Source: Marisediminicola senii (GTDB lineage Bacteria > Actinomycetota > Actinomycetes > Actinomycetales > Microbacteriaceae). Taken from it: a stretch of DNA of 64,000 nucleotides. The notes under the pieces are model-generated. The model was given only the letters and a program-made list of their open reading frames with translations, ran no database searches and had not been told where the DNA came from. The position numbers and the translations under genes were made by a program. This document shows, piece by piece, positions 5,930 to 41,806 of this stretch. How positions within the stretch are numbered: the first letter of the stretch is position 1; each line of letters starts with the position of its first letter. The DNA lies in NCBI RefSeq assembly GCF_011057645.1, contig NZ_JAALGE010000004.1, positions 1 to 64,000 on the forward strand, read 5' to 3'.

Positions 5930-8830
5930 ATGGTGGATAACAACAACATGGAACAGGCGCCGCGCAGGCGCAAGAGCCTCTTCGGAGCCCGTAAGACCAA
6001 GGCAGTCGACGACCCGATCGATGGGGCGCCGCTGATGCCGTCCGGCAGCATCGACACCGGCGCCGGCCAGCCCGAGTCGTTCGAGGCACCGGCCGACGAG
6101 ACCCCGCCCGACGCCGCGGGTGACGACACCACCGGTGGCGACACCGCCGGTACGGACACCACGGACGTCGACGGCGCCGTCGAGCAGGCCCCCGTCGAGC
6201 AGGCCACTGTCGACACCGCGTCACCGCCCGCCAGGGCCCTGCCGTCGACGTCCCTGATCTTCCAGGCCCCCGACCTGCCGGCATACGTGCCCCGCGAATC
6301 GTCGAGGGACGACCGCGGCGGCCGCGACGCCGGCCGCGGCGACGGTGGCAGGGGAGACAACCGCGATGGCGGCCGCGACAGCGGCAACCGCCGCGGCGGG
6401 GCGACCGACAGCTTCGGCCGCACCGACAGCGACCGCGACCGTGACCGCCAGGATCGCGACGACGACGAGTCGAGCACGGTCCGCCGCCGCTCACGCCGCC
6501 GCACCGGCGAAGAGGACCGCAACGCGCCCAACCCGCCCAACACCGTCATCAAGGTTCGCCCGCCCCGCCCGGAGCCCGAGCTCATCACCGAGCCGCAGCG
6601 CATCAAGGGCTCCACCCGCCTCGAGGCGAAGAAGCAGCGCCGCCGCGACGGCCGCGACGCCGGGCGCCGCCGCACCGTCATCACCGAGGCCGAGTTCCTC
6701 GCCCGCCGCGAGAGCGTCGACCGCACCATGGTGGTGCGCTCCAAGCTCGACCGTATCCAGATCGGCGTGCTCGAAGACGGCGTGCTCTCCGAGCACTACG
6801 TCGCCAAGGCGCAGGACGCCAGCCTGATCGGCAACGTCTACCTCGGTCGCGTGCAGAACGTGCTCCCGAGCATGGAAGCCGCGTTCGTCGACATCGGCCG
6901 CGGCCGCAACGCCGTGCTCTACTCCGGCGAGGTCGACTGGGATGCCGCGGCCGCCGACAGCGGCAACGGCAGCCAGGCCCGTCGCATCGAATTGGCGCTG
7001 AAGCCCGGCGACACCGTGCTCGTGCAGGTCACGAAGGACCCGATCGGCCACAAGGGCGCCCGGCTCACCAGCCAGGTGTCGCTGCCGGGCCGCTACCTCG
7101 TCTACGTGCCCAACGGGTCGATGAACGGCATCAGCCGCAAGCTGCCGGACACCGAGCGTGCGCGCCTCAAGAAGGTGCTGAAAGAGGTGCTGCCCGAGAA
7201 CGTCGGCGTCATCGTGCGCACCGCGGCCGAGGGAGCCACCGACGAGCAGCTGACTCTCGACGTCAACCGGCTCACCGCGCAGTGGGCGCACATCAGCGAG
7301 ACGGTCGAGAAGGCCCAGGCGCCTGCGCTGCTGCACAGCGAGCCCGACCTGCTGGTCAAGATCATCCGCGACGTCTTCAACGAAGACTTCCAGAAGCTCG
7401 TCATCGACGGGGACGACGCCGCGGAGACCATCTCCACCTACCTCGCGCAGATCGCCCCCGACCTCATCGACCGCATCGAGAAGTACGAGGGCGAGAAGGA
7501 CTCGTTCGACGAGTACCGCATCTCCGAGCAGATCGAGAAGGCCCTCGACCGCAAGGTCTGGCTGCCCTCCGGCGGCTCGCTCGTCATCGACCGCACCGAG
7601 GCGATGACCGTCGTCGACGTCAACACGGGTAAGTTCGTCGGATCCGGCGGCAACCTCGAAGAGACCGTCACCAAGAACAACCTCGAAGCGGCAGAAGAGA
7701 TCGTGCGCCAGATGCGGCTGCGCGACATCGGCGGCATCATCGTCGTCGACTTCATCGACATGGTGCTCGAGACCAACCGCGACCTCGTGCTGCGCCGCCT
7801 GGTGGAGTGCCTCGGGCGGGACCGCACCAAGCACCAGGTCGCCGAGGTCACCTCGCTCGGGCTCGTGCAGATGACCCGCAAGAAGCTCGGACTCGGCCTG
7901 CTCGAATCGTTCAGCGAGAACTGCGAGGCGTGCGCCGGCCGCGGCATCATCGTCAACCACGACCCGCTCGTCGCGCACCGCCAGTCGCCGCAGCCCGAGA
8001 CCGGCCGCCGCGGCCGCAAGGGCGCGAACACCAACGGCGGAGGCGGCTCGTCCGCCCCGTCGACCTCGGCGCCCAAGTCGGGCGGTGGCACGCACGCCAT
8101 CACCGACGACGTGCGCAGCGCGCTCGCCAAGATCGCGACCTCCACCATCACGCAGGCGGATGCGGCATCCGTTCCCCTCGATGCCATCGCCGATGCCGCG
8201 GTCGCCGCGGTCATCGACACCCCGGTCACCCCGGCGGCATCAGAGGCCGACGCGCCGCAGTCCGGCGGCTCGAACGGCCAGCAGTCGAACGGCCAGCAGT
8301 CCGGCAGCCAGCAGGGGTCCGGCCAGCAGGGTGGCAGCCAGCAGGGGTCCGGCCAGCAGTCCGGGCGCCAGTCTGGTCGTCGCGAGCCGCGCCGTCGCGC
8401 GTCGTCCTCGGGGTCCGCAGCCCCCGCGGCCATCACCCCGGTGACCACGGAGCAGGCGCCGGCAGCACCCGGCTCGACGCCGCCGCAGCCGATCGTGGTC
8501 CCCGCGGTCACGACCGATGCCGCTGGCGTCGTCACGGTCGCCGAGCCCGTCTCGTCTGCCCCGACGCTGATCGAGATCCCACAGAAGAAGGTCGTGCGCA
8601 CGCCGCGCAAGATGTCGACGCACGACGCCGAGCAGATCCTCGACTCCGTGCTCGACGCCCTGCCGGAGCCCCGGCCGTCCGGCCAGGGTCGCAGCACCCG
8701 CACCTCGCGCCGTGCCTCGTCGTCCGGCACCGTCACGGCCGAGGCGCAGGGCGCGGCACCGACCAGCGCGCAGTCCGACGTGCCAGCCGACGCTGGCTCG
8801 TCCTCCGACGCGGTCGGCTCCGGCAGCTAG
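5930..8830 (+). CDS. rne: Ribonuclease E/G family endoribonuclease
   Basis: Cleaves single-stranded RNA in rRNA maturation and mRNA decay. The 966-residue protein has a long charged N-terminal extension (residues 1 to about 275, rich in Asp, Arg and Gly). An S1-like RNA-binding domain follows (from IQIGVLEDGVLSEHYVAKA, about residue 277). The catalytic DNase-I-like domain has a metal-binding Asp in TVVDVNTGKFVG (about residue 562) and DIGGIIVVDFIDM (about 600). The Zn-link CEACAGRG is at about 665. The C-terminus is a low-complexity Gln/Ser/Gly tract (8262-8375) and a basic/Ala-Pro tail. The layout, with catalytic core between two disordered arms, is that of actinobacterial RNase E. RBS AAGGAG at 5914-5919 supports ATG 5930. 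Confidence 0.96.
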   Translation: MVDNNNMEQAPRRRKSLFGARKTKAVDDPIDGAPLMPSGSIDTGAGQPESFEAPADETPPDAAGDDTTGGDTAGTDTTDVDGAVEQAPVEQATVDTASPPARALPSTSLIFQAPDLPAYVPRESSRDDRGGRDAGRGDGGRGDNRDGGRDSGNRRGGATDSFGRTDSDRDRDRQDRDDDESSTVRRRSRRRTGEEDRNAPNPPNTVIKVRPPRPEPELITEPQRIKGSTRLEAKKQRRRDGRDAGRRRTVITEAEFLARRESVDRTMVVRSKLDRIQIGVLEDGVLSEHYVAKAQDASLIGNVYLGRVQNVLPSMEAAFVDIGRGRNAVLYSGEVDWDAAAADSGNGSQARRIELALKPGDTVLVQVTKDPIGHKGARLTSQVSLPGRYLVYVPNGSMNGISRKLPDTERARLKKVLKEVLPENVGVIVRTAAEGATDEQLTLDVNRLTAQWAHISETVEKAQAPALLHSEPDLLVKIIRDVFNEDFQKLVIDGDDAAETISTYLAQIAPDLIDRIEKYEGEKDSFDEYRISEQIEKALDRKVWLPSGGSLVIDRTEAMTVVDVNTGKFVGSGGNLEETVTKNNLEAAEEIVRQMRLRDIGGIIVVDFIDMVLETNRDLVLRRLVECLGRDRTKHQVAEVTSLGLVQMTRKKLGLGLLESFSENCEACAGRGIIVNHDPLVAHRQSPQPETGRRGRKGANTNGGGGSSAPSTSAPKSGGGTHAITDDVRSALAKIATSTITQADAASVPLDAIADAAVAAVIDTPVTPAASEADAPQSGGSNGQQSNGQQSGSQQGSGQQGGSQQGSGQQSGRQSGRREPRRRASSSGSAAPAAITPVTTEQAPAAPGSTPPQPIVVPAVTTDAAGVVTVAEPVSSAPTLIEIPQKKVVRTPRKMSTHDAEQILDSVLDALPEPRPSGQGRSTRTSRRASSSGTVTAEAQGAAPTSAQSDVPADAGSSSDAVGSGS
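8262..8375 (+). repeat. Gln/Ser/Gly-coding imperfect tandem repeat in rne
   Basis: Repeated units of about 15-30 bp built on GGCCAGCAGTCC / GGCAGCCAGCAGGGGTCC encode SNGQQ, SGSQQ and GSGQQ blocks. The tract is in frame, low complexity and likely to vary in length between strains. Confidence 0.75.
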
Positions 8831-26552: not shown

Positions 26553-26578
26553 GCCCGTGCCGTCACCACGGCACGGGC
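26553..26578. terminator. Hairpin between convergent fdhD and moeA
   Basis: GCCCGTGCCGT (26553-26563), loop CACC, ACGGCACGGGC (26568-26578). The hairpin overlaps the moeA stop codon and last codons and could act in both directions. No U-run. Confidence 0.6.
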
Positions 26579-27759
26579 ATGACCGGCACGGGGTCGCCGG
26601 CGCGCGCACCCGGCGGCGCGCAGACCAGCACTCCCGCCGCGTCGGCGAGTCCGCGCAGCATCCCGGATCCGCGCCACGCGGTCGGCACGGCCCGGCCGTC
26701 GACCAGGTGGTAGGGGAGCAGCCGAGTGCTGTCTCCCGCGGGGCTGATGTCGGTGGCGAGCACGACGCTGCCGCAGGTCGGCTCCGCGTCGCCGTGCATC
26801 GCGGCGAGGAGCGGGCGCACCAGGGTGAGCACGCCCATCATCGCCGCGAGCGGATTTCCGGGCAGGCCGACGACGAACTGGCCGCTGTCGAGACGCGCCA
26901 GGATCGAGGGTGACCCCGGCCGCATTGCGATGCCGTCGACCACGATGGTCGCGCCGAGCGCGACCAGGGTGTCGCGCAGGTGGTCGGCCGGGGAGTCGCC
27001 GGTGCCGCCGGTGGTGATCACCAGGTCGGTGCCGCGCAGCAGCTCGCGCACGGTCGCGATCGACAGGTCGAGGTCGTCGCCGATGCGGCGGGTCGCGGTC
27101 ACGTCGGCGCGCAGCGCGGCGAGCACGGCGGGGAGCATGACCCCGAAGCTGTCGCGCACGATTCCGGGGGCGGGGATGCCGCTCTCGACGACCTCGTCGC
27201 CGGTGAGCAGCAGGCCGACGCGTGCGCGGCCGCGCACCGCGATGGCGTCGACGCCGGTGGATGCCGCGACCGCGAGGTGCACGGGGTTGAGCGTGGTGCC
27301 GGCCGGGATGACCACGTCGCCCGCGCGGTACTCCGAACCGCTGGGGCGGATGTCGGCGCCGGGCCCGAGCGGCTCCCGCCCGGTGTCGGTGCGCTCGGTC
27401 AGCACGCCGCCGTCGGTGAGGTGGCCGTGCTCGGTGCGCAGGATTCCCGTGGTGCCGGGCGGCACGAGGCCGCCGGTGACGATCGCCGCCGCGGCGCCGT
27501 CCGACAGCGGTGGTGCGCTGCCCACCGCGCGGGTGATCGTGGCGCCGCCGTCACGCAGGCTCCACGGGGCGTCGCCCGAGACGGCCCAGCCGTCCATGGC
27601 CGACGACGCGTAGTGCGGGATGTCGGTGAGGGAGGCGAGGTCGGCGGCGAGGGTGCGGCCGGCGGCGTCGGCGAGGGCTACCTCCGCCGGCGGGAGGGGT
27701 GACGCGACGTCCCAGGCCGACCGGTGTGCGGCGTCCCAGGCGACGGCGTCACGCTTCAT
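26563..27759 (-). CDS. moeA: Molybdopterin molybdenumtransferase MoeA
   Basis: Inserts molybdate into adenylated molybdopterin. The 398-residue protein shows YASSAMDGWAVSG near the N-terminus, then IVTGGLVPPGTTGILRTE, then DIRPSGSEYRAGDVVIPAGT. The MoCF_biosynth domain includes VGLLLTGDEVVESG, DLVITTGGTGDSPADHL and QFVVGLPGNPLAAMMG, and a C-terminal domain IV follows. ATG 27759 lies within the last codons of the upstream mobA fusion gene (11-bp overlap), so the two are coupled. The start is set by that overlap and by MKRDAVAWDAAHRSAWDV matching the usual beginning of short actinobacterial MoeA. Confidence 0.95.
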   Translation of the reverse strand: MKRDAVAWDAAHRSAWDVASPLPPAEVALADAAGRTLAADLASLTDIPHYASSAMDGWAVSGDAPWSLRDGGATITRAVGSAPPLSDGAAAAIVTGGLVPPGTTGILRTEHGHLTDGGVLTERTDTGREPLGPGADIRPSGSEYRAGDVVIPAGTTLNPVHLAVAASTGVDAIAVRGRARVGLLLTGDEVVESGIPAPGIVRDSFGVMLPAVLAALRADVTATRRIGDDLDLSIATVRELLRGTDLVITTGGTGDSPADHLRDTLVALGATIVVDGIAMRPGSPSILARLDSGQFVVGLPGNPLAAMMGVLTLVRPLLAAMHGDAEPTCGSVVLATDISPAGDSTRLLPYHLVDGRAVPTAWRGSGMLRGLADAAGVLVCAPPGARAGDPVPVMPVPW

Positions 27760-28771
27760 CGGTGCCCGTCGCCTGCGGTGCTGCCCTGCACAGTCCGAGG
27801 GCCACGTCGATGGCGGCATCCATCGCCTGCTGGGGGTCTGCGGCACCCGCGGCGGCGAACCCGGCCGCATAGCCGGCGACGAAGGTCGTCAGCGGCGCCG
27901 CCGGACGGATGACGGAGTGCGCGGCCTCGCCGGCGAGGTCGAGCACGGCGTTGATGTCGACCGGCACGTCGGACATGTCGTAGGCGGCGGTCAGCTCGGC
28001 GGTCCAGTCGGTCAGGATGGTGTTCTTGTCGCGGGTGTCGGCCATGGTGTGCTCCGTGTCGTCGGTGTGGGTGGCGGTGCTGGTGTCGGTGTCGGTGTCG
28101 GGCGGCGTGGGTGCCGTGGGTGCTGCGGGTGTGGCGGCCGGCGGGGCGTCGATCCCGAACGCGGCGGCGTCGTGCCAGGTGTCGACGTCGTCGGTCGATC
28201 CGGCGGGCAGGTCGATGGGTGCGGGGGAGAGCTGCCCGACCAGGCCGAACACCGACAGCCCGTCGAGGGTGCCGGCGGCGCGGTGCCGGTCGGCGGCGGC
28301 GGTCAGGGCCGCGGTCGGGTAGACCGCGGCGAGGGGCTGCAGCCGACCCGCGACGTCGCGCCCGACGAGGCCGGTGCCGACCGTGCCGGAGCGCGCGGCC
28401 GCCATGAGGGCGGAGGCGGCATCCTGCACGCGTGGCATGTCGCAGGCGAGCACGAGGGTGACGTCGCTCGGCTCGGCGGTATGGCTCGGCTCGACGGTGT
28501 CCTGCGGGGTGTGGGGGGTGGATGCCGCGGCGGCGAGCAGCGCGAGGCCCGCGGCGATCCCGGCAGCGGGGCCGCCGAACGCGGGTTCCTCGCGGGTCAC
28601 GGGTGCCCGCGGGGTGGTCACCGGGCCGACGACCACGACGCGGTCGGCATCAGCGACGGCATCGAGCGTGCGATCGAGCAGCGTCGAGCCCTCGAATTCG
28701 AGGAGCGCCTTCGCGGTGGTGCCGAGGCGGGACGACCGTCCGCCGGCGAGCACGATGGCATGGATGATCAC
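27749..28771 (-). CDS. mobA: MobA-like molybdenum cofactor guanylyltransferase fused to DUF6457
   Basis: A 340-residue two-domain protein. Residues 1 to about 210 form a MobA-type NTP-transferase with IVLAGGRSSRLG (6-17), EPAFGGPAAGIAAGL, VTLVLACDMPRV (metal-binding Asp) and LQPLAAVYPTAAL; it would attach GMP to Mo-molybdopterin. After an Ala/Pro and Asp/Thr-rich linker (DTDTDTSTATHTDD), residues 243-340 form a DUF6457 domain (ILTDWTAELTAAYDM, AHSVIRPAAPLTTFVAGYAAG). An internal ATG at 28045 (M243) has CGGAG 6 nt upstream and might also start the second domain alone. The GTG start 28771 follows a TACTCT hexamer by 5 nt. It overlaps moeA. Confidence 0.85.
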   Translation of the reverse strand: MIIHAIVLAGGRSSRLGTTAKALLEFEGSTLLDRTLDAVADADRVVVVGPVTTPRAPVTREEPAFGGPAAGIAAGLALLAAAASTPHTPQDTVEPSHTAEPSDVTLVLACDMPRVQDAASALMAAARSGTVGTGLVGRDVAGRLQPLAAVYPTAALTAAADRHRAAGTLDGLSVFGLVGQLSPAPIDLPAGSTDDVDTWHDAAAFGIDAPPAATPAAPTAPTPPDTDTDTSTATHTDDTEHTMADTRDKNTILTDWTAELTAAYDMSDVPVDINAVLDLAGEAAHSVIRPAAPLTTFVAGYAAGFAAAGAADPQQAMDAAIDVALGLCRAAPQATGTDEA

Positions 28772-28850
28772 ATTCCAGAGTAACCGGCCCCGCGGAGGCG
28801 ACCGGTCAGGGAGACAGTGGGTGAGGTTGAGGCAGCCGGGCGTGGGCGCC

Positions 28851-29111
28851 TCAGCCGACCAGTGGTGCGCTGAACCGGCCGTCGAGCGCGAGCGCCCTCG
28901 CCACGTGGTCGAGCGATGCGAACGACACCGATTCCCACGGCCGGGAGATGCGGGTGAGGACGAACCCGTCGGTGTCACGGGCGACGAAGCCGAGCACGCA
29001 TTCGCTGCTGCCGGCCGGAAAGCGCCGGTCGGAGATGCGCCACTCGGTGGGGGAGAGCCGGTCGAAGCTGATGTCCGCCATCGCACGGTTCGCACAGGAA
29101 CTGTTCGTCAT
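28851..29111 (-). CDS. Small conserved-looking protein, function unknown
   Basis: An 86-residue soluble protein containing DISFDRLSPTEWRISDRRF, VLGFVARDTDGFVLTRISRPWE and SLDHVARAL. The mix of polar and hydrophobic residues and the presence of AAGGGG before ATG 29111 support real coding. A second ATG (29081, MADISFDRL) could also be the start. No known family is recognised and no neighbour is overlapped, so it may be a separate small transcription unit. Confidence 0.6.
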   Translation of the reverse strand: MTNSSCANRAMADISFDRLSPTEWRISDRRFPAGSSECVLGFVARDTDGFVLTRISRPWESVSFASLDHVARALALDGRFSAPLVG

Positions 29112-30574: not shown

Positions 30575-32113
30575 CTACCAGGCTGCGGGCTTGTAGTCCT
30601 TCAGGAACACCCCGTAGATGTCCTCGCCCCGCTCGCCCATCACGATCGGGTCGTACACGCGCGCCGCGCCGTCGACCAGGTCGAGCGGGGCGTGGAAGCC
30701 CTCCTGCGCGAGGCGGATCTTGGTCGGGTGCGGGCGTTCGTCGGTGATCCAGCCGGTGTCGACGCTCGTCATCAGGATGCCGTCCGATTCGAACATCTCC
30801 TTCGCGCTCGTGCGGGTGAGCATGTTGAGCGCGGCCTTCGCCATGTTGGTGTGTGGATGCCCCGGTCCCTTGTACCCGCGCCCGAACTGCCCCTCCATCG
30901 CCGAGACATTGACGACGTAGGTGCGCCTGGCGCCTGAGGCACGCATGGCCCCCCGCAACCGGCTGACGAGCAGAAACGGCGCGGTGACGTTCGCCAGCTG
31001 CACCTCGAGCATCTCGAGCGGATCGACGTCGTCGACGACCTGGGTCCAGCTGTTGCTGTCGTGGTGGTCGGGCACCAGCCCGCCGGCGTCGATGGCGGTG
31101 CCGTCGGCGAGGCGGTCGAGCGACGACGATCCCGCGGCCATCGCGAGCGCCGACAACCGGTCGCCGTTCAGCCCGTCGGTGGCCAGTGCGTTCGCGGTCA
31201 GTCCGGCGGTCGCGAGCAGCGCCGGGTGCGCGGTGACCGACGCGGCCAGCGCCTGCGGGTGCGCGTCGCTGGTGTGCCCGAACGACAGCACCTCGGGCAG
31301 CGGGCCGTCGGGCGACGGCTGCGACTCGGCCGCGGTCAGCGGGGCGTACGACCCGGCGGAGCGGCGCACGGTCTGCGCGGCGTTGTTGATGAGGATGTCG
31401 AGCGGCCCGGCCGCGACCATCGCGTCGGTGAGGCCGATCACCTGCGCGGGGTCGCGCAGGTCGATGCCGACGATGCGCAGGCGGTGCAGCCAGTCGGCCG
31501 AGTCGGGCAGGCCCGTGAAGCGGCGCACGGCGTCGCGGGGAAAGCGCGTGGTGATGGTGAGGTGGGCACCGTCGCGCAGCAGCCGCAGCGCGATATGCAT
31601 GCCGATCTTGGCCCGGCCGCCGGTGAGCAGCGCGCGGCGTCCGGTGAGGTCGGCGTGCGCGTCGCGCTTGCCGTGGCTCATCGCGGCGCAGTCCGGGCAG
31701 AGCTGGTGGTAGAACGAGTCGACCACCGTGTAGCGCTGCTTGCAGATATAGCAGGGGCGCGCCTTGTGGAACTCCCCGGCACCGGTGGCCGCCCCGCTGA
31801 TCGCCAGGGTGACGCCGCGGGTCTCGTCGTCGACCCGGTCGGGGGCGCCGGTCGCGGTCGCGGCGACGACGGCACGGTCGGCGTCGGCGATCACGGCGCG
31901 CTTCTCCAGCCGGCGGGTCTTCTTGACCGACTTGAACATGCGCGCGGTCGCCCTGCGCAGCGCGATGACGTCGGGGTGATCCTCGCCGAAGCCGTCGACC
32001 TCGGCCATCACCCGCAGCGCCGTGGCGAGGTCGGTGGGGTCGATGGCCTCCCTGGCCGCACCGGGGCGGTCGGAGTCGGTTGGCGAAGCGGGGTGGTCGT
32101 TGTCGAGTGGCAC
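30575..32113 (-). CDS. Two-part SDR-family protein with N-terminal Cys4 motif and no catalytic Tyr
   Basis: A 512-residue protein. The N-terminal part contains a probable zinc site, C121-x2-C124 and C139-x2-C142 (CYIC...CPDC). The C-terminal part is a short-chain dehydrogenase/reductase fold: Rossmann TGGRAKIG (164-171), DLRDPAQVIG, LINNAAQTVRR, and VVNVSAMEGQF with the catalytic-type Ser. The expected YxxxK is replaced by HPHTNMAK (K about 425): four residues before the Lys is Thr, not Tyr. Standard SDR chemistry is therefore doubtful. GTG 32113 is chosen as the last start before charged residues begin. It is divergent from the nucleoside hydrolase gene. Function is unknown. Confidence 0.78.
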   Translation of the reverse strand: MPLDNDHPASPTDSDRPGAAREAIDPTDLATALRVMAEVDGFGEDHPDVIALRRATARMFKSVKKTRRLEKRAVIADADRAVVAATATGAPDRVDDETRGVTLAISGAATGAGEFHKARPCYICKQRYTVVDSFYHQLCPDCAAMSHGKRDAHADLTGRRALLTGGRAKIGMHIALRLLRDGAHLTITTRFPRDAVRRFTGLPDSADWLHRLRIVGIDLRDPAQVIGLTDAMVAAGPLDILINNAAQTVRRSAGSYAPLTAAESQPSPDGPLPEVLSFGHTSDAHPQALAASVTAHPALLATAGLTANALATDGLNGDRLSALAMAAGSSSLDRLADGTAIDAGGLVPDHHDSNSWTQVVDDVDPLEMLEVQLANVTAPFLLVSRLRGAMRASGARRTYVVNVSAMEGQFGRGYKGPGHPHTNMAKAALNMLTRTSAKEMFESDGILMTSVDTGWITDERPHPTKIRLAQEGFHAPLDLVDGAARVYDPIVMGERGEDIYGVFLKDYKPAAW

Positions 32114-32155
32114 ACCGGAGTTTAACCGCTGTGCGCGGTGTGGCACGGTTGACCC

Positions 32156-33169
32156 ATGCCCCCACTGCATTCGTCGACCCAGCACCAGCCACCCCTGCGC
32201 CTGCTGCTCGACTGCGACCCCGGACTCGACGACGCGCTCGCCCTGCTGCTCGCCCACGCCGACCCGGCACTGCAGCTCGTCGCCGTCACCACGGTGGGCG
32301 GCAACGTGTCTCTCGAGAACACGACACGCAACGCGTTGCAGCTGCGGCAGTACCTCGGGTTCGAGCGGGTCCCGGTCGCGGCCGGTGCGCCGGCGCCGCT
32401 CGCGCGGCCGGCCAGGTCCGCGGCGCATGTGCACGGGGAGGAGGGCCTCGGTGACGTGCGCCTGCCGGTGGCGGGCGCCGCGGCATCCACCGCCCATGCC
32501 GTCGACACCATCGTCGATACCCTCCGCGACAGCCCAGGCGACGTGCACCTCGTGGCGACTGGGCCGCTCACGAACATCGCCCTCGCGCTGCGGCGGGAGC
32601 CGCGCATCGTCGAATGGGCGGCGTCGTTCGTGATCATGGGCGGCTCGTACACTCGCGGCAACGCGACCCCCGCCGCGGAGTTCAACATCTACGCCGACCC
32701 GGAGGCCGCTGCCGAAGTGTTCGCCGCCAACTGGAACGTCGTGATGATCGGCCTCGACGCCACGCTGCAGGCCATCGCCACGCCGACGATCGTCGATCGG
32801 ATGCGCGCGCTGGGCTCCCTCGGCACCGAATTCGCCGTGCCGCTGTCGACCTTCTGGACCGACCCAAACGACGCCGACTGGCCGGGGCAGGCCGTGCACG
32901 ACGTGTGCGCGGTCGCCTACGTCGCCCGCCCCGACCTGTTCGTCTCGCGTCCTGCGCTCGTGCGCGTCGAGACAGAGGGGGAGTACACCTCTGGCATGAC
33001 CGTGGTCGATTTCAACGCTGCCGACCCCGACGCTGCCGACCCCAACGCGACCGTGGTCACCACCGTCGATGTCGACGCCTTCTGGGATTACGTGCTCGGG
33101 GTGTGGGCACTTGTGGCACCGGAGATCGACGACCGTGCGGCGCACGCGGGGGAGCGCACCCGTGGCTGA
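32156..33169 (+). CDS. Inosine/uridine-preferring nucleoside hydrolase
   Basis: Splits nucleosides into base and ribose (purine/pyrimidine salvage). The 337-residue protein has the family signature DCDPGLDDALALLLAHAD (residues about 19-36, Ca-binding Asp cluster), VTTVGGNVSLENTTRNAL, the VHLVATGPLTNIALAL loop, SFVIMGGSYTRGN and PAAEFNIYADPEAA, and the later VHDVCAVAYVARPDLF with the metal-binding Asp and His region. Substrate preference cannot be read. Its end overlaps the helicase start by 8 bp, so the two are cotranscribed. Confidence 0.92.
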   Translation: MPPLHSSTQHQPPLRLLLDCDPGLDDALALLLAHADPALQLVAVTTVGGNVSLENTTRNALQLRQYLGFERVPVAAGAPAPLARPARSAAHVHGEEGLGDVRLPVAGAAASTAHAVDTIVDTLRDSPGDVHLVATGPLTNIALALRREPRIVEWAASFVIMGGSYTRGNATPAAEFNIYADPEAAAEVFAANWNVVMIGLDATLQAIATPTIVDRMRALGSLGTEFAVPLSTFWTDPNDADWPGQAVHDVCAVAYVARPDLFVSRPALVRVETEGEYTSGMTVVDFNAADPDAADPNATVVTTVDVDAFWDYVLGVWALVAPEIDDRAAHAGERTRG

Positions 33170-36459: not shown

Positions 36460-37215
36460 TCAGGCGGGTACCACACCGCCGAACCGCTCGGTCTTGATGT
36501 CTGCCGCGTCGTAGCCGGCGTCGACCAGCCAGTTCGCTACCGTCTCGACGAACGGCGTCGACCCGCACACGTAGACCGCGGCGCGTTCGGCCGGTGCGAA
36601 GACACTCGCCATCACGTGTTCCCGGTCGAGTCGCTCCGGCGGTGTCGGCCAGCCGGCGGGCGTGGCGCGGCTGAAGTTCCAGGTGACCTCGAGCGGCGCG
36701 TCCTCGGCAGCGCGGCGCACCAGCTCGTCACGGAACAGCGCACGCTCCGGGGTGCGCACCGAGTACAGCAACCGGAACGGCGCCGCACTGTGGGCGTCGC
36801 CGTGGCTGCGGATCATCGACATCAGCGGAACGATGCCGGAGCCGCCACCGATGAGCTGCACGGGGCGCATGTTCTCGCCGTCGCCGGCGCGCGCCCCGGC
36901 GTGCTGGCGCCAGATGAACCATCCACCTGCCGGCCCGCGAATCTCGACCATGTCGCCCACCTCGGCGACGTCGACGAGGTAAGGCGACACCTCACCGTCG
37001 GCCAGCTTGTCGACGGTGATCTCGAGGCGCTTCGACGTGCTCGACGACGCGATCGAATACGACCTCACCGCGGTGTAGCCGTCTTCCGCAGTGAGCCGAA
37101 CATCGACGTGCTGGCCCGCGATGTGCCCTGGCCAGTGCGGGATGTCGATCACCAGGGAGCGGGTGCCAGGGGTCTCGGTCCAGGCCTCGGTGATGCGCCC
37201 GGGTGCCCAGGTCAC
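36460..37215 (-). CDS. FNR-type FAD/NAD(P)H oxidoreductase, partner of molybdoenzyme
   Basis: A 251-residue ferredoxin-reductase-like protein: FAD-binding RSYS at 51-54 (AVRSYSIASS), then GGGSGIVPLMSMI (123-135) of the NAD(P) site, and the C-terminal AVYVCGSTPFVETVANWL. There is no [2Fe-2S] domain, so electrons must pass directly or through another carrier. Start GTG 37215 overlaps the stop of the upstream sulfite-oxidase-like gene (GTGA), which marks a functional pair. Likely role: pass electrons between NAD(P)H and the molybdopterin enzyme. That is inferred from the coupling. Confidence 0.85.
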   Translation of the reverse strand: MTWAPGRITEAWTETPGTRSLVIDIPHWPGHIAGQHVDVRLTAEDGYTAVRSYSIASSSTSKRLEITVDKLADGEVSPYLVDVAEVGDMVEIRGPAGGWFIWRQHAGARAGDGENMRPVQLIGGGSGIVPLMSMIRSHGDAHSAAPFRLLYSVRTPERALFRDELVRRAAEDAPLEVTWNFSRATPAGWPTPPERLDREHVMASVFAPAERAAVYVCGSTPFVETVANWLVDAGYDAADIKTERFGGVVPA

Positions 37216-37805
37216 CAATAGCGCTGCTCACGCCACGGGTCGCCGTACATGTGGTACCCGTTCTGCTCCCAGAACCCCGGCTCGTCGTTCTCCATCATGC
37301 GGATGCCCCGCACCCACTTGGCGCTCTTCCAGAAGTACAGGTGCGGCACGAGCAACCGGGCGGGCCCGCCGTGCTCTGGCTCGAGCGGCTTGCCGTCGAA
37401 CTCGAACGCCACCCACGCCTTGCCGCCCATCAGGTCGGCGAGCGGAACGTTCGTCGTGTACCCGCCGTAGGAGTACGCCATCGTGAAGCCGGCGGAGGTC
37501 TCGATGCCGTCGAACAGGGTGTCGAGCGACACTCCCCGCCAGCCGGTTCCGAACTTCGACCAGCTCGTGACGCAGTGGATGTCGGTGGTCACGTCGGCGA
37601 TCGGCAGCGCCATCAGCTCATCCCACGACCAGCGGTGCTGCAGGCCGTCCTCGGTCTCGATCGTGAACTGCCACTCCTCGTGGGTCACCCGCGGTGTCGG
37701 TCCAGCCGACAGCACCGGAAAGCTCTCGGTGAGGTATTGCCCCGGGGGCAGCCCCGGGGTGTCCGGCCGACGCCTGCCCGAGAAACCCGACGAAAACAGC
37801 CCCAT
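37212..37805 (-). CDS. Sulfite oxidase-like molybdopterin-dependent oxidoreductase (small, cytosolic)
   Basis: A 197-residue protein that is essentially one oxidoreductase molybdopterin-binding domain. It has DIHCVTSWSKFGTGWRGV, with C78 as the expected Mo ligand, then YTTNVPLADLMGGKAWVAFEFDGKPLEPEHGGP, LVPHLYFWKSAKWVRGI, and the ending GDPWREQRYW. There is no Tat signal, no haem domain and no dimerisation domain, unlike YedY/MsrP or eukaryotic sulfite oxidase, so it is probably cytoplasmic. GGGAG before ATG 37805 supports the start. It is coupled to the FNR gene, and MoeA/MobA are encoded 9 kb away. The substrate is unknown. Confidence 0.88.
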   Translation of the reverse strand: MGLFSSGFSGRRRPDTPGLPPGQYLTESFPVLSAGPTPRVTHEEWQFTIETEDGLQHRWSWDELMALPIADVTTDIHCVTSWSKFGTGWRGVSLDTLFDGIETSAGFTMAYSYGGYTTNVPLADLMGGKAWVAFEFDGKPLEPEHGGPARLLVPHLYFWKSAKWVRGIRMMENDEPGFWEQNGYHMYGDPWREQRYW

Positions 37806-40942: not shown

Positions 40943-41806
40943 CTAGCCGACGAGCCGCTCGCCTGAGGTCGCGAGCAGCGCGACGTTGAGCAGTGCCGAG
41001 ACCATGATGAGGCGGAACAGCAGCCGCGACGGCTTGCGGCTCCACGACAGCCACACCCCGGCGATCGCGATGCCGATGGTCGCGATCAGGCCGATCGACT
41101 GGGCTTCTGCGGGCTGGCCGGACGGGCCGGCGAACGCGACGATGGATGCTGCCGCGAGCACGACCCAGGTGAGGATGCCGGTGAGCTTCGCGCCGATGCG
41201 GTGCGGGAGGCCGATCACGCCGGTCGCCCGGTCGTCGTCGAAGTCGGGCAGCACGTTCGCGAGGTGCGCGGCGACGCCGAGCAGGGCCCCCATCACCATC
41301 GCCCACCACGCGGCCACCGCCGGCTGGGGCATCGACAGGGTCACGATGGTGGGCAGCAGCCCGAAGCTCACGACGTAGGGCACGACTGAGAACACGGTGC
41401 TCTTGAGCCCGGCGTTGTACGACCACGCCGACGCGATGAACACCGCGTGTGCGAGGGCGGCCCACCAGCCAAGCGGAATGGTGAGCACGATCGAGAGCGC
41501 GGCGGAGGAGAAGGCCGCCGTGCGCACCGTCGACGCCTCGATGAGGCCCGCCGCGACCGGCTTGTCCTGCCGGCCAGCCTCGCGGTCGCGGTCGGCGTCG
41601 ATCCAGTCGTTCGACAGGCCGACCGACGCCTGGTTGGCGATCACGGCGAGGCCGAGCAGCAGCAGGCGCCACGGCTCGAGGCCGATGCCGATGCCGAGCA
41701 CGACGGCGACGATGGTGACCGTGACGGTGGGGCCGGGGTGGGTCGAGCCGAGCAGCGCACGCATGGCATCGCGCCGCGGGGTCTCCCGGCGGTCGAATTC
41801 GCTCAT
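40943..41806 (-). CDS. UbiA family prenyltransferase
   Basis: A membrane prenyltransferase of 287 residues with about eight helices. It has the first Asp-rich motif NDWIDADRDREAGRQDKP (residues 66-83, NDxxDxxxD type) and the second, DFDDDRATG, both needed to bind Mg-prenyl diphosphate. The acceptor is unknown. Last gene of a four-gene minus-strand operon; ATG 41806 overlaps the quinone-reductase stop as ATGA. With a quinone-reductase-like partner, a quinone or related isoprenoid role is possible but not shown. Confidence 0.88.
   Translation of the reverse strand: MSEFDRRETPRRDAMRALLGSTHPGPTVTVTIVAVVLGIGIGLEPWRLLLLGLAVIANQASVGLSNDWIDADRDREAGRQDKPVAAGLIEASTVRTAAFSSAALSIVLTIPLGWWAALAHAVFIASAWSYNAGLKSTVFSVVPYVVSFGLLPTIVTLSMPQPAVAAWWAMVMGALLGVAAHLANVLPDFDDDRATGVIGLPHRIGAKLTGILTWVVLAAASIVAFAGPSGQPAEAQSIGLIATIGIAIAGVWLSWSRKPSRLLFRLIMVSALLNVALLATSGERLVG

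Follow-up and report, generated by a model that had tools for sequence, protein, structure and literature searches.

A sulfite oxidase-like protein and its FNR-type neighbor in Marisediminicola senii: a conserved gene pair and a candidate cytosolic S-oxide reductase

What reaction might be served by a sulfite oxidase-like protein whose gene overlaps that of a flavin reductase? The question is raised by a stretch of 64,000 nucleotides from the actinomycete Marisediminicola senii (NCBI RefSeq assembly GCF_011057645.1, contig NZ_JAALGE010000004.1, positions 1 to 64,000; hereafter the window), part of a 3.24-Mb genome that is 99.8% complete, in which a presumed molybdenum enzyme and an FNR-type FAD/NAD(P)H reductase are encoded at 36460-37805. 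The two genes are best explained, on comparative grounds, as encoding one enzyme system. With evenly balanced confidence we favor a cytosolic NAD(P)H-driven S-oxide reductase resembling MsrP, probably acting on methionine sulfoxide, that would serve against oxidant damage.

The gene pair and its conservation

The sulfite oxidase-like gene (37212-37805, minus strand, ATG start) encodes 197 aa with a single cysteine, Cys78. In a Pfam scan at E<=0.1 its sole match is PF00174 (117.8 bits against a cut-off of 24), with neither a Mo-co dimer domain nor a heme domain. The reductase gene (36460-37218, minus strand) encodes 252 aa from a TTG start or 251 aa from a GTG start. In the same scan FAD_binding_6 and NAD_binding_1 match above their cut-offs and NAD_binding_6 below threshold, no Fer2 (2Fe-2S) domain was found, and 19 of 24 aligned members of the family have one cysteine. 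The junction reads CGC TAT TGG TGA CCT and both candidate reductase starts lie within the end of the upstream gene, giving an overlap (37212-37218, minus strand) of 7 nt with TTG or 4 nt (GTGA) with GTG, which is consistent with translational coupling. By inspection, with no signal-peptide predictor run, no hydrophobic stretch was seen in residues 1-60 of the sulfite oxidase-like protein, where the highest 17-residue Kyte-Doolittle mean is 0.24. The preliminary description of this locus had portrayed a single-domain sulfite oxidase-like protein of 197 aa with Cys78, devoid of heme domain, dimer domain and twin-arginine translocation (Tat) signal, whose stop overlaps the start of an FNR protein lacking a 2Fe-2S domain; the domain scan, the junction and the inspected N terminus agree with it on each of these points. 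On the other side of the reductase, a convergent flavin reductase-like gene (PF01613, 35708-36418) ends 41 bases from it and was matched in 2 of 80 loci.

Conservation was followed in 296 genomes of the class, searched for each protein (match lists sorted by E-value, the strong part complete), and in a named-genome set made up of the best 80 of 296 matching stretches, in which the nearest named relatives of the sulfite oxidase-like protein are Microbacteriaceae. An FNR gene lies directly downstream on the same strand at 98 of the 102 class places where the sulfite oxidase-like protein is matched at 53% identity or more, the window's own included, and these pairs span 94 genomes, 39 genera and 21 families. 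Three of the four unpaired close relatives end at contig edges (G051:C259, G060:C87 and G225:C55); the fourth, G225:C17, is a true exception, a close relative without an FNR gene. Among the class matches listed, none of the 48 relatives at 41-48% identity is paired. Seen from the reductase, a sulfite oxidase-like gene adjoins 99 of 100 FNR match rows with E<1e-25 (two rows being pieces of one gene); the remaining row lies near the end of a separate contig, in a genome whose sulfite oxidase-like gene also ends a contig. Beside the weaker FNR matches listed for the class, such a partner was found at 0 of 50. Because nearly all the strong FNR rows and none of the weaker ones adjoin a sulfite oxidase-like gene, the FNR subfamily looks like a dedicated partner of that protein.

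In the named-genome set the FNR is present at 73 of 80 loci. Of the other seven, one is truncated within the gene, and the flanks of the remaining six, which come from Acidimicrobia and allies and stand at 52-56% identity, show no match. The pair also occurs in Chloroflexota and Hymenobacter, and 13 of 15 plasmid pairs with both genes annotated have coding sequences that overlap when read by eye. Such pairing is far above chance. It had been set down beforehand, with the preliminary description, that its reading would fall if the pair were not conserved in other genomes or if the FNR were partnered with another protein; what was found is the pairing at the class places and named loci just counted, and a strong-match FNR set that keeps to the sulfite oxidase-like gene. 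The broader proposal of an NAD(P)H-linked molybdenum redox pair gains support from both results.

A fusion of the two proteins, which was considered as proof of partnership, occurs in none of the 73 two-gene loci, where the stop of the sulfite oxidase-like frame either precedes the FNR start or lies at most a few bases from it. Selenocysteine or readthrough was considered for the Streptomyces FNR, some rows of which were flagged for a single TGA, and set aside: in the three such loci inspected the alignments finish at ERF or ERFG with no internal stop in the part shown, and the TGA is most simply an ordinary terminal stop. The FNR on plasmids of Sinorhizobium fredii, S. meliloti and Devosia is in two pieces, from a broken gene or a sequence error (L286:8620-9359; L289 and L290, ~8001-8700). 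On the sulfite oxidase-like tree, Planococcus sp. APC 4015 (L089) and Corynebacterium-like bacterium B27 (L096) group with Microbacterium and Herbiconiux; these records are likely mislabelled or the genes acquired.

Relatives without an FNR have neighborhoods of their own. The six at 52-56% identity (L142-L147, ~6001-6610; in L147, 2590-3189) stand near a helix-turn-helix gene and an Mrp/ApbC gene (Pfam), and other neighbors look like cytochrome c maturation when the translations are read, no search having been made; a different electron donor may perhaps serve there. In the 41-48% paralog group (L151-L161), a gene of a PASTA-domain Ser/Thr kinase cluster lies in the stretch of 10 of 11 loci.

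The molybdenum protein and its neighborhoods

The AlphaFold2 model of the sulfite oxidase-like protein has a mean predicted local distance difference test (pLDDT) of 88.4 and a predicted template modeling score of 0.85; it was built from an alignment of 29 sequences, the window's and those of 28 of the 80 loci. Foldseek placed Escherichia coli YedY/MsrP first (1xdy, E 2.8e-12), followed by chicken sulfite oxidase, Thermus sulfite oxidase, SoxC, Pichia nitrate reductase, SorA, SorT, plant sulfite oxidase and PruR. A family profile also returned MsrP first (1xdq, E 5.7e-14), as did NCBIfam (E 9.7e-12), but with 44.8 bits against a cut-off of 207 the protein falls far under that model's threshold; the SoxC, SorT and SorA models gave 31.1, 26.4 and 19.1 bits against cut-offs of 420, 570 and 600. 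Judged by family model, family profile and Foldseek, MsrP is the nearest enzyme of known function.

The alignment also speaks to the substrate. Cys78 aligns with Cys185 of chicken sulfite oxidase, the molybdenum-ligand position, and Tyr184 with its active-site Tyr322, and both are invariant in 29 of 29 sequences. The position of chicken Arg138, the sulfite-binding arginine (mutant structures are among the fold matches), is held by Leu32 in 29 of 29 aligned members. This placement rests on a family-profile alignment that is weak in that part (2.8 bits), extended by four residues without a gap, and on the VIA rows for 2a9b and 3hbp, which start with residue 28 opposite 134 and were extended likewise. 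With this charge gone, sulfite and nitrate become less likely substrates and neutral ones more likely.

The neighborhoods of the pair on plasmids are rich in repair genes. FNR relatives at E<=1e-20 occur in 139 plasmid records, including 28 from Acinetobacter, 26 from Klebsiella and 25 from Pseudomonas; the weakest among the matches listed (31%) carry a 2Fe-2S annotation and probably belong to a different type of protein. Pairing was checked in 22 opened regions, hand-picked across identity levels, of which L173, L277 and L291 are the same element, L283 has no FNR in its stretch and four carry no annotation. The opened regions show the pair on plasmids from E. coli, Pseudomonas aeruginosa, Aeromonas and others; Klebsiella and Acinetobacter plasmids, in regions left unopened, likewise yield matches to both proteins. 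Either msrA or msrB lies in 10 of the 22 regions, and at least one of msrA, msrB, DUF417, an RclA-like reductase, OsmC and glutaredoxin in 16. The RclA-like reductase, annotated as mercuric reductase, and DUF417 are read here as Rcl genes. Two regions share the order msrA, selO, msrB, OsmC, DUF427, reductase, sulfite oxidase-like gene, FNR, egtB, egtD and MOSC, with other genes interspersed. In the pHN39-SIM island, MsrB WP_003464965.1 and MsrA WP_003464967.1 are encoded ~5.4-6.4 kb upstream of the pair; Table 1 of a 2022 paper gives both as examples of Msr subfamilies linked to chlorite dismutase (PMC9751292), and a search of the text of that paper did not find the term "sulfite oxidase".

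On chromosomes the association is sparser. Of the 97 class loci, 3 have msrA or msrB near the pair, as do 3 of the 74 named ones; the sum is 6 of 171 loci against an expectation of 0.82, calculated from how densely msr genes occur in 30 of the 94 paired genomes (P = 0.0002, or P = 0.0016 with two near-identical Arthrobacter loci counted once), P values that are optimistic because the two sets may share lineages. The Arthrobacter loci L106 and L118 read msrB, msrA, sulfite oxidase-like gene, FNR and the small gene DUF6510 in one direction, and class locus L233 has DUF417, RclA-like and OsmC matches together. No msr, DUF417, RclA-like or OsmC match was found in the 11 loci of the 41-48% group or in the six FNR-less loci.

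Two further plasmids deserve mention. Comamonas aquatica plasmid pB1A carries a second sulfite oxidase-like gene (L175:1577-2185) between a glutaredoxin gene and a mercuric reductase-like gene, close to msrB and with no FNR beside it. On a Sphingomonas plasmid, a gene for a VPGUxxT family thioredoxin-like (seleno)protein stands just upstream of the pair (L276:6138-7067).

DUF6510 and the cofactor genes

Clustering of neighbors brought out a small protein encoded after the FNR, DUF6510 (PF20120, 108 bits). Of 74 loci, 45 have it after the FNR and in every case on the same strand, the two matches being separated by -1 to 80 nt; two of the others, L114 and L135, end too early to show it. It is present in L068, which at 81% is nearest to the window among the named relatives (best 80 of 296). 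Above the Pfam cut-off it occurs at 49 class places, in 45 of 296 genomes; 47 of these adjoin an FNR gene (46 on the FNR strand), and two are located at the ends of contigs. In the genomes searched DUF6510 is thus nearly confined to the third-gene position of this operon, in actinomycetes and Chloroflexota, and no paper naming it turned up in the open-licence literature. It is missing beside 52 of 99 class FNR places and from 19 of the 22 plasmid regions, and it was not found in the window's near-complete genome or in the five congeners searched, three of which carry the sulfite oxidase-like gene. The DUF6510-free form was considered as a separate clade and rejected: on the sulfite oxidase-like tree the label needs 8 changes, the starred branches force 3, and many forks are unresolved. 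A scattered loss is likely, and on this distribution DUF6510 is an accessory of the system and not part of its core. The minimal bare pair of the preliminary description is what this genome has, being without DUF6510; as a general picture it does not always hold, DUF6510 being the third gene in about half of the pairs.

The four cysteines of a C-x2-C-x21-C-x2-C motif are invariant in 17 of 17 aligned DUF6510 sequences. The model (pLDDT 81.3) has no fold match at Foldseek E<=0.001; the best VIA Z is 5.1 and eS27 zinc ribbons reach ~4, below the meaningful level. The weak resemblances in sequence and fold are to zinc ribbons, none of them significant, and an assignment as rubredoxin was dropped, no rubredoxin being among the sequence or fold matches listed. 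The predicted site may be a zinc ribbon or an iron site.

The window also holds moeA, for molybdenum insertion (26563-27870, minus strand), and a gene for a MobA-like nucleotidyltransferase with a C-terminal DUF6457 (27749-29095, minus strand), a domain that may have a function related to the molybdenum cofactor. Both are context only. The preliminary description had them supply the cofactor from nearby; the genes are real, but their proximity is incidental, both standing >7 kb from the pair and a moeA-like neighbor occurring in 6 of 80 loci by tblastn or 7 by clustering. Not being conserved neighbors by either method, moeA and mobA were rejected as parts of the system. Parts of the cofactor pathway are present, since the genome has moaC and the window has fdhD, moeA and the MobA-like gene. 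Elsewhere in this genome, two other SUOX-fold genes, in longer frames, lie ~4-9 kb from moaC (C99:36256-36702, 41246-41650 and 31758-32159).

Proposed reaction, alternatives and relation to known systems

In the reaction we propose, NAD(P)H would reduce the FAD of the FNR protein, which would dock on the single-domain molybdenum protein and pass two electrons, directly or via a flavin semiquinone. Mo(VI) would be brought to Mo(IV), which, held by the pterin dithiolene and Cys78, would remove the oxygen of an S-oxide, either a small molecule or part of a protein, the products being the reduced sulfur compound and water. Methionine sulfoxide would be the likeliest substrate, or else a related sulfoxide arising from the action of hypochlorous acid or similar oxidants, and the system would be a cytosolic counterpart of periplasmic MsrPQ without the heme membrane subunit. 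The molybdenum content, cytosolic location, electron path, nucleotide preference, direction and substrate in this scheme are what we infer. A role in reducing sulfur compounds is favored because the oxyanion-binding arginine is missing and because of the msrA/msrB context. MsrP is described as reducing methionine sulfoxide in proteins without stereospecificity and as being linked to reactive chlorine stress (PMC7402097), and its protection against reactive chlorine species is also reported in passages on its Brucella relatives (PMC8315932). The preliminary description had left the choice between an oxidized sulfur and an oxidized nitrogen compound; Leu32 and the msr context tilt it toward sulfur, with N-oxides still possible and nitrate and chlorate less likely.

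Several observations weigh against an S-oxide reductase. When the single sequence was searched against the PDB, the top match was chicken sulfite oxidase (E 9.6e-8), and MsrP ranked far lower (E 3.8e-4). VIA-align gives similar scores for the SUOX enzymes (Z 14.4-19.5), SoxC and SorA (19.5) coming out slightly higher than MsrP (17.7-18.0), so that MsrP is not picked out by fold alone. Members that lack an FNR have Leu32 as well, and hence it is not specific to the pair. The plasmid counts come from hand-picked regions, three with the same element, and have no matched control, while an msr match is missing from the flanks of 165 of the 171 class and named loci and from the window. YeeE/YedE thiosulfate transporter genes stand beside a Sinorhizobium pair and a Devosia pair, and in one study a Gordonia gene named "sulfite oxidase-like oxidoreductase", of unchecked orthology, is up with organosulfur as sole sulfur source (PMC7661421). 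Because of these neighbors and this induction, sulfite and organosulfur roles stay alive.

They would be accommodated by a cytosolic sulfite:NAD(P)+ oxidoreductase, whose molybdenum protein oxidizes sulfite from organosulfur use and whose FNR gives the electrons to NAD(P)+. The transfer from sulfite to NAD+ is downhill by established redox potentials, the RefSeq annotation is itself sulfite oxidase-like, and a SulP anion transporter gene lies near one pair, all of which add to the search result led by the chicken enzyme. Against this stand the leucine at the sulfite-binding position, SoxC, SorT and SorA scores far below their cut-offs, and the msr context, and we regard the oxidoreductase as distinctly improbable. 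Unlikely too, in our judgment, is a cytosolic NAD(P)H-dependent reductase of an N-oxide, an N-hydroxy compound, chloramine, nitrate or chlorate. Such an enzyme would be a heme-free analog of eukaryotic assimilatory nitrate reductase, which has the same two functions, a molybdenum domain and a FAD/NAD(P)H domain; the fold matches include Pichia nitrate reductase, the FNR matches include FNR fragments of nitrate reductase, and the chlorite dismutase link of one island would also suit an enzyme turning chlorate into chlorite. The uniform leucine speaks against it as well, the annotated neighbors include many protein and thiol repair genes, and no nitrate assimilation gene was noticed among them, four of the 22 plasmid regions being unannotated and no model search having been made.

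The remaining alternatives concern the parts of the system. In one, the actual redox partner would be DUF6510, as a protein with a mononuclear Fe(Cys)4 or zinc site placed between FNR and molybdenum, and DUF6510-free genomes would use another carrier or have lost full function. Its place after the FNR, in the closest named relative among others, its near restriction to FNR neighbors and its invariant cysteines would fit; this genome and its congeners, the many FNR places and plasmid regions without it, and a resemblance, if weak and non-significant, to zinc ribbons, which carry no electrons, make this an improbable reading. The sulfite oxidase-like protein could also be a pterin- or cofactor-binding sensor rather than a catalyst, PruR pterin-binding proteins matching its fold (E 1.8e-7 to 6.3e-7, Z 12.7-13.7). 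For the larger true SUOX enzymes the fit is better and covers more of the chain, Cys78 and Tyr184 do not vary, and the sensor reading gives no easy account of a dedicated reductase; we therefore hold it to be very improbable.

The molybdenum protein itself has a place in existing classifications. In a 2020 review that cites Kappler (2008), group 3 of the sulfite oxidase family consists of uncharacterized single-subunit cytoplasmic enzymes, and FAD is given only for the plant nitrate reductases within the family (PMC7759655). The protein fits group 3 in its one PF00174 domain, its conserved cysteine ligand, its lack of heme domain, dimer domain and evident signal sequence, and its occurrence in environmental bacteria. 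Unlike that single-subunit group, it is encoded alongside a dedicated FAD reductase, often with DUF6510, and the dedicated FNR gene suggests a second component of the system. With MsrP/MsrQ (YedY/YedZ) it shares the SUOX fold, the cysteine ligand and a reactive-chlorine context, and Fre, an FNR-type reductase, appears in one paper as a potential electron donor of MsrQ (PMC5676040). It differs from MsrP in having no evident Tat signal and a score far under the MsrP cut-off, and its conserved neighbor is a soluble FNR, not a heme membrane subunit, so that electrons would come straight from the FNR. Like eukaryotic assimilatory nitrate reductase it would combine a SUOX-fold molybdenum domain with an FNR-type FAD/NAD(P)H domain that drives it, but in two chains, with no cytochrome b5 or dimer domain and with leucine at the oxyanion arginine. 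With sulfite oxidase, SorA, SorT and SoxC it has in common the fold, the cysteine ligand and the active-site tyrosine, whereas the arginine is replaced by leucine, the dimer domain is missing and the partner is an FNR instead of a heme subunit. No description of the conserved FAD partner, of DUF6510 or of the oxidant-island setting was found in the open-licence literature, a coverage that leaves out the group 3 reviews. Within this coverage the pairing, the third gene and the context look new; the group of the molybdenum protein was already known.

A wider and more tentative proposal, possible rather than probable, is that the pair provides a third cytosolic repair of methionine sulfoxide, protein-bound or free, beside the thiol enzymes: a molybdenum reductase free of heme and Fe-S, powered directly by NAD(P)H via an FNR of its own, acting like MsrP on R and S forms alike, widespread in actinomycetes and spread by plasmids within chlorine/oxidant defense islands. 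The dedicated NAD(P)H reductase is a likely physiological electron donor for group 3, which makes activity assayable at once, and the neighboring genes give a short list of substrates. Some of the plasmids that carry the pair are drug-resistance plasmids, and the plasmid-borne pair may bear on tolerance to chlorine-type oxidants. If the S-oxide reading is true, there would be a molybdenum route for the repair of oxidized methionine in the cytosol without thioredoxin, and group 3 of the sulfite oxidase family would gain a function, with a bacterial SUOX enzyme wired to FAD.

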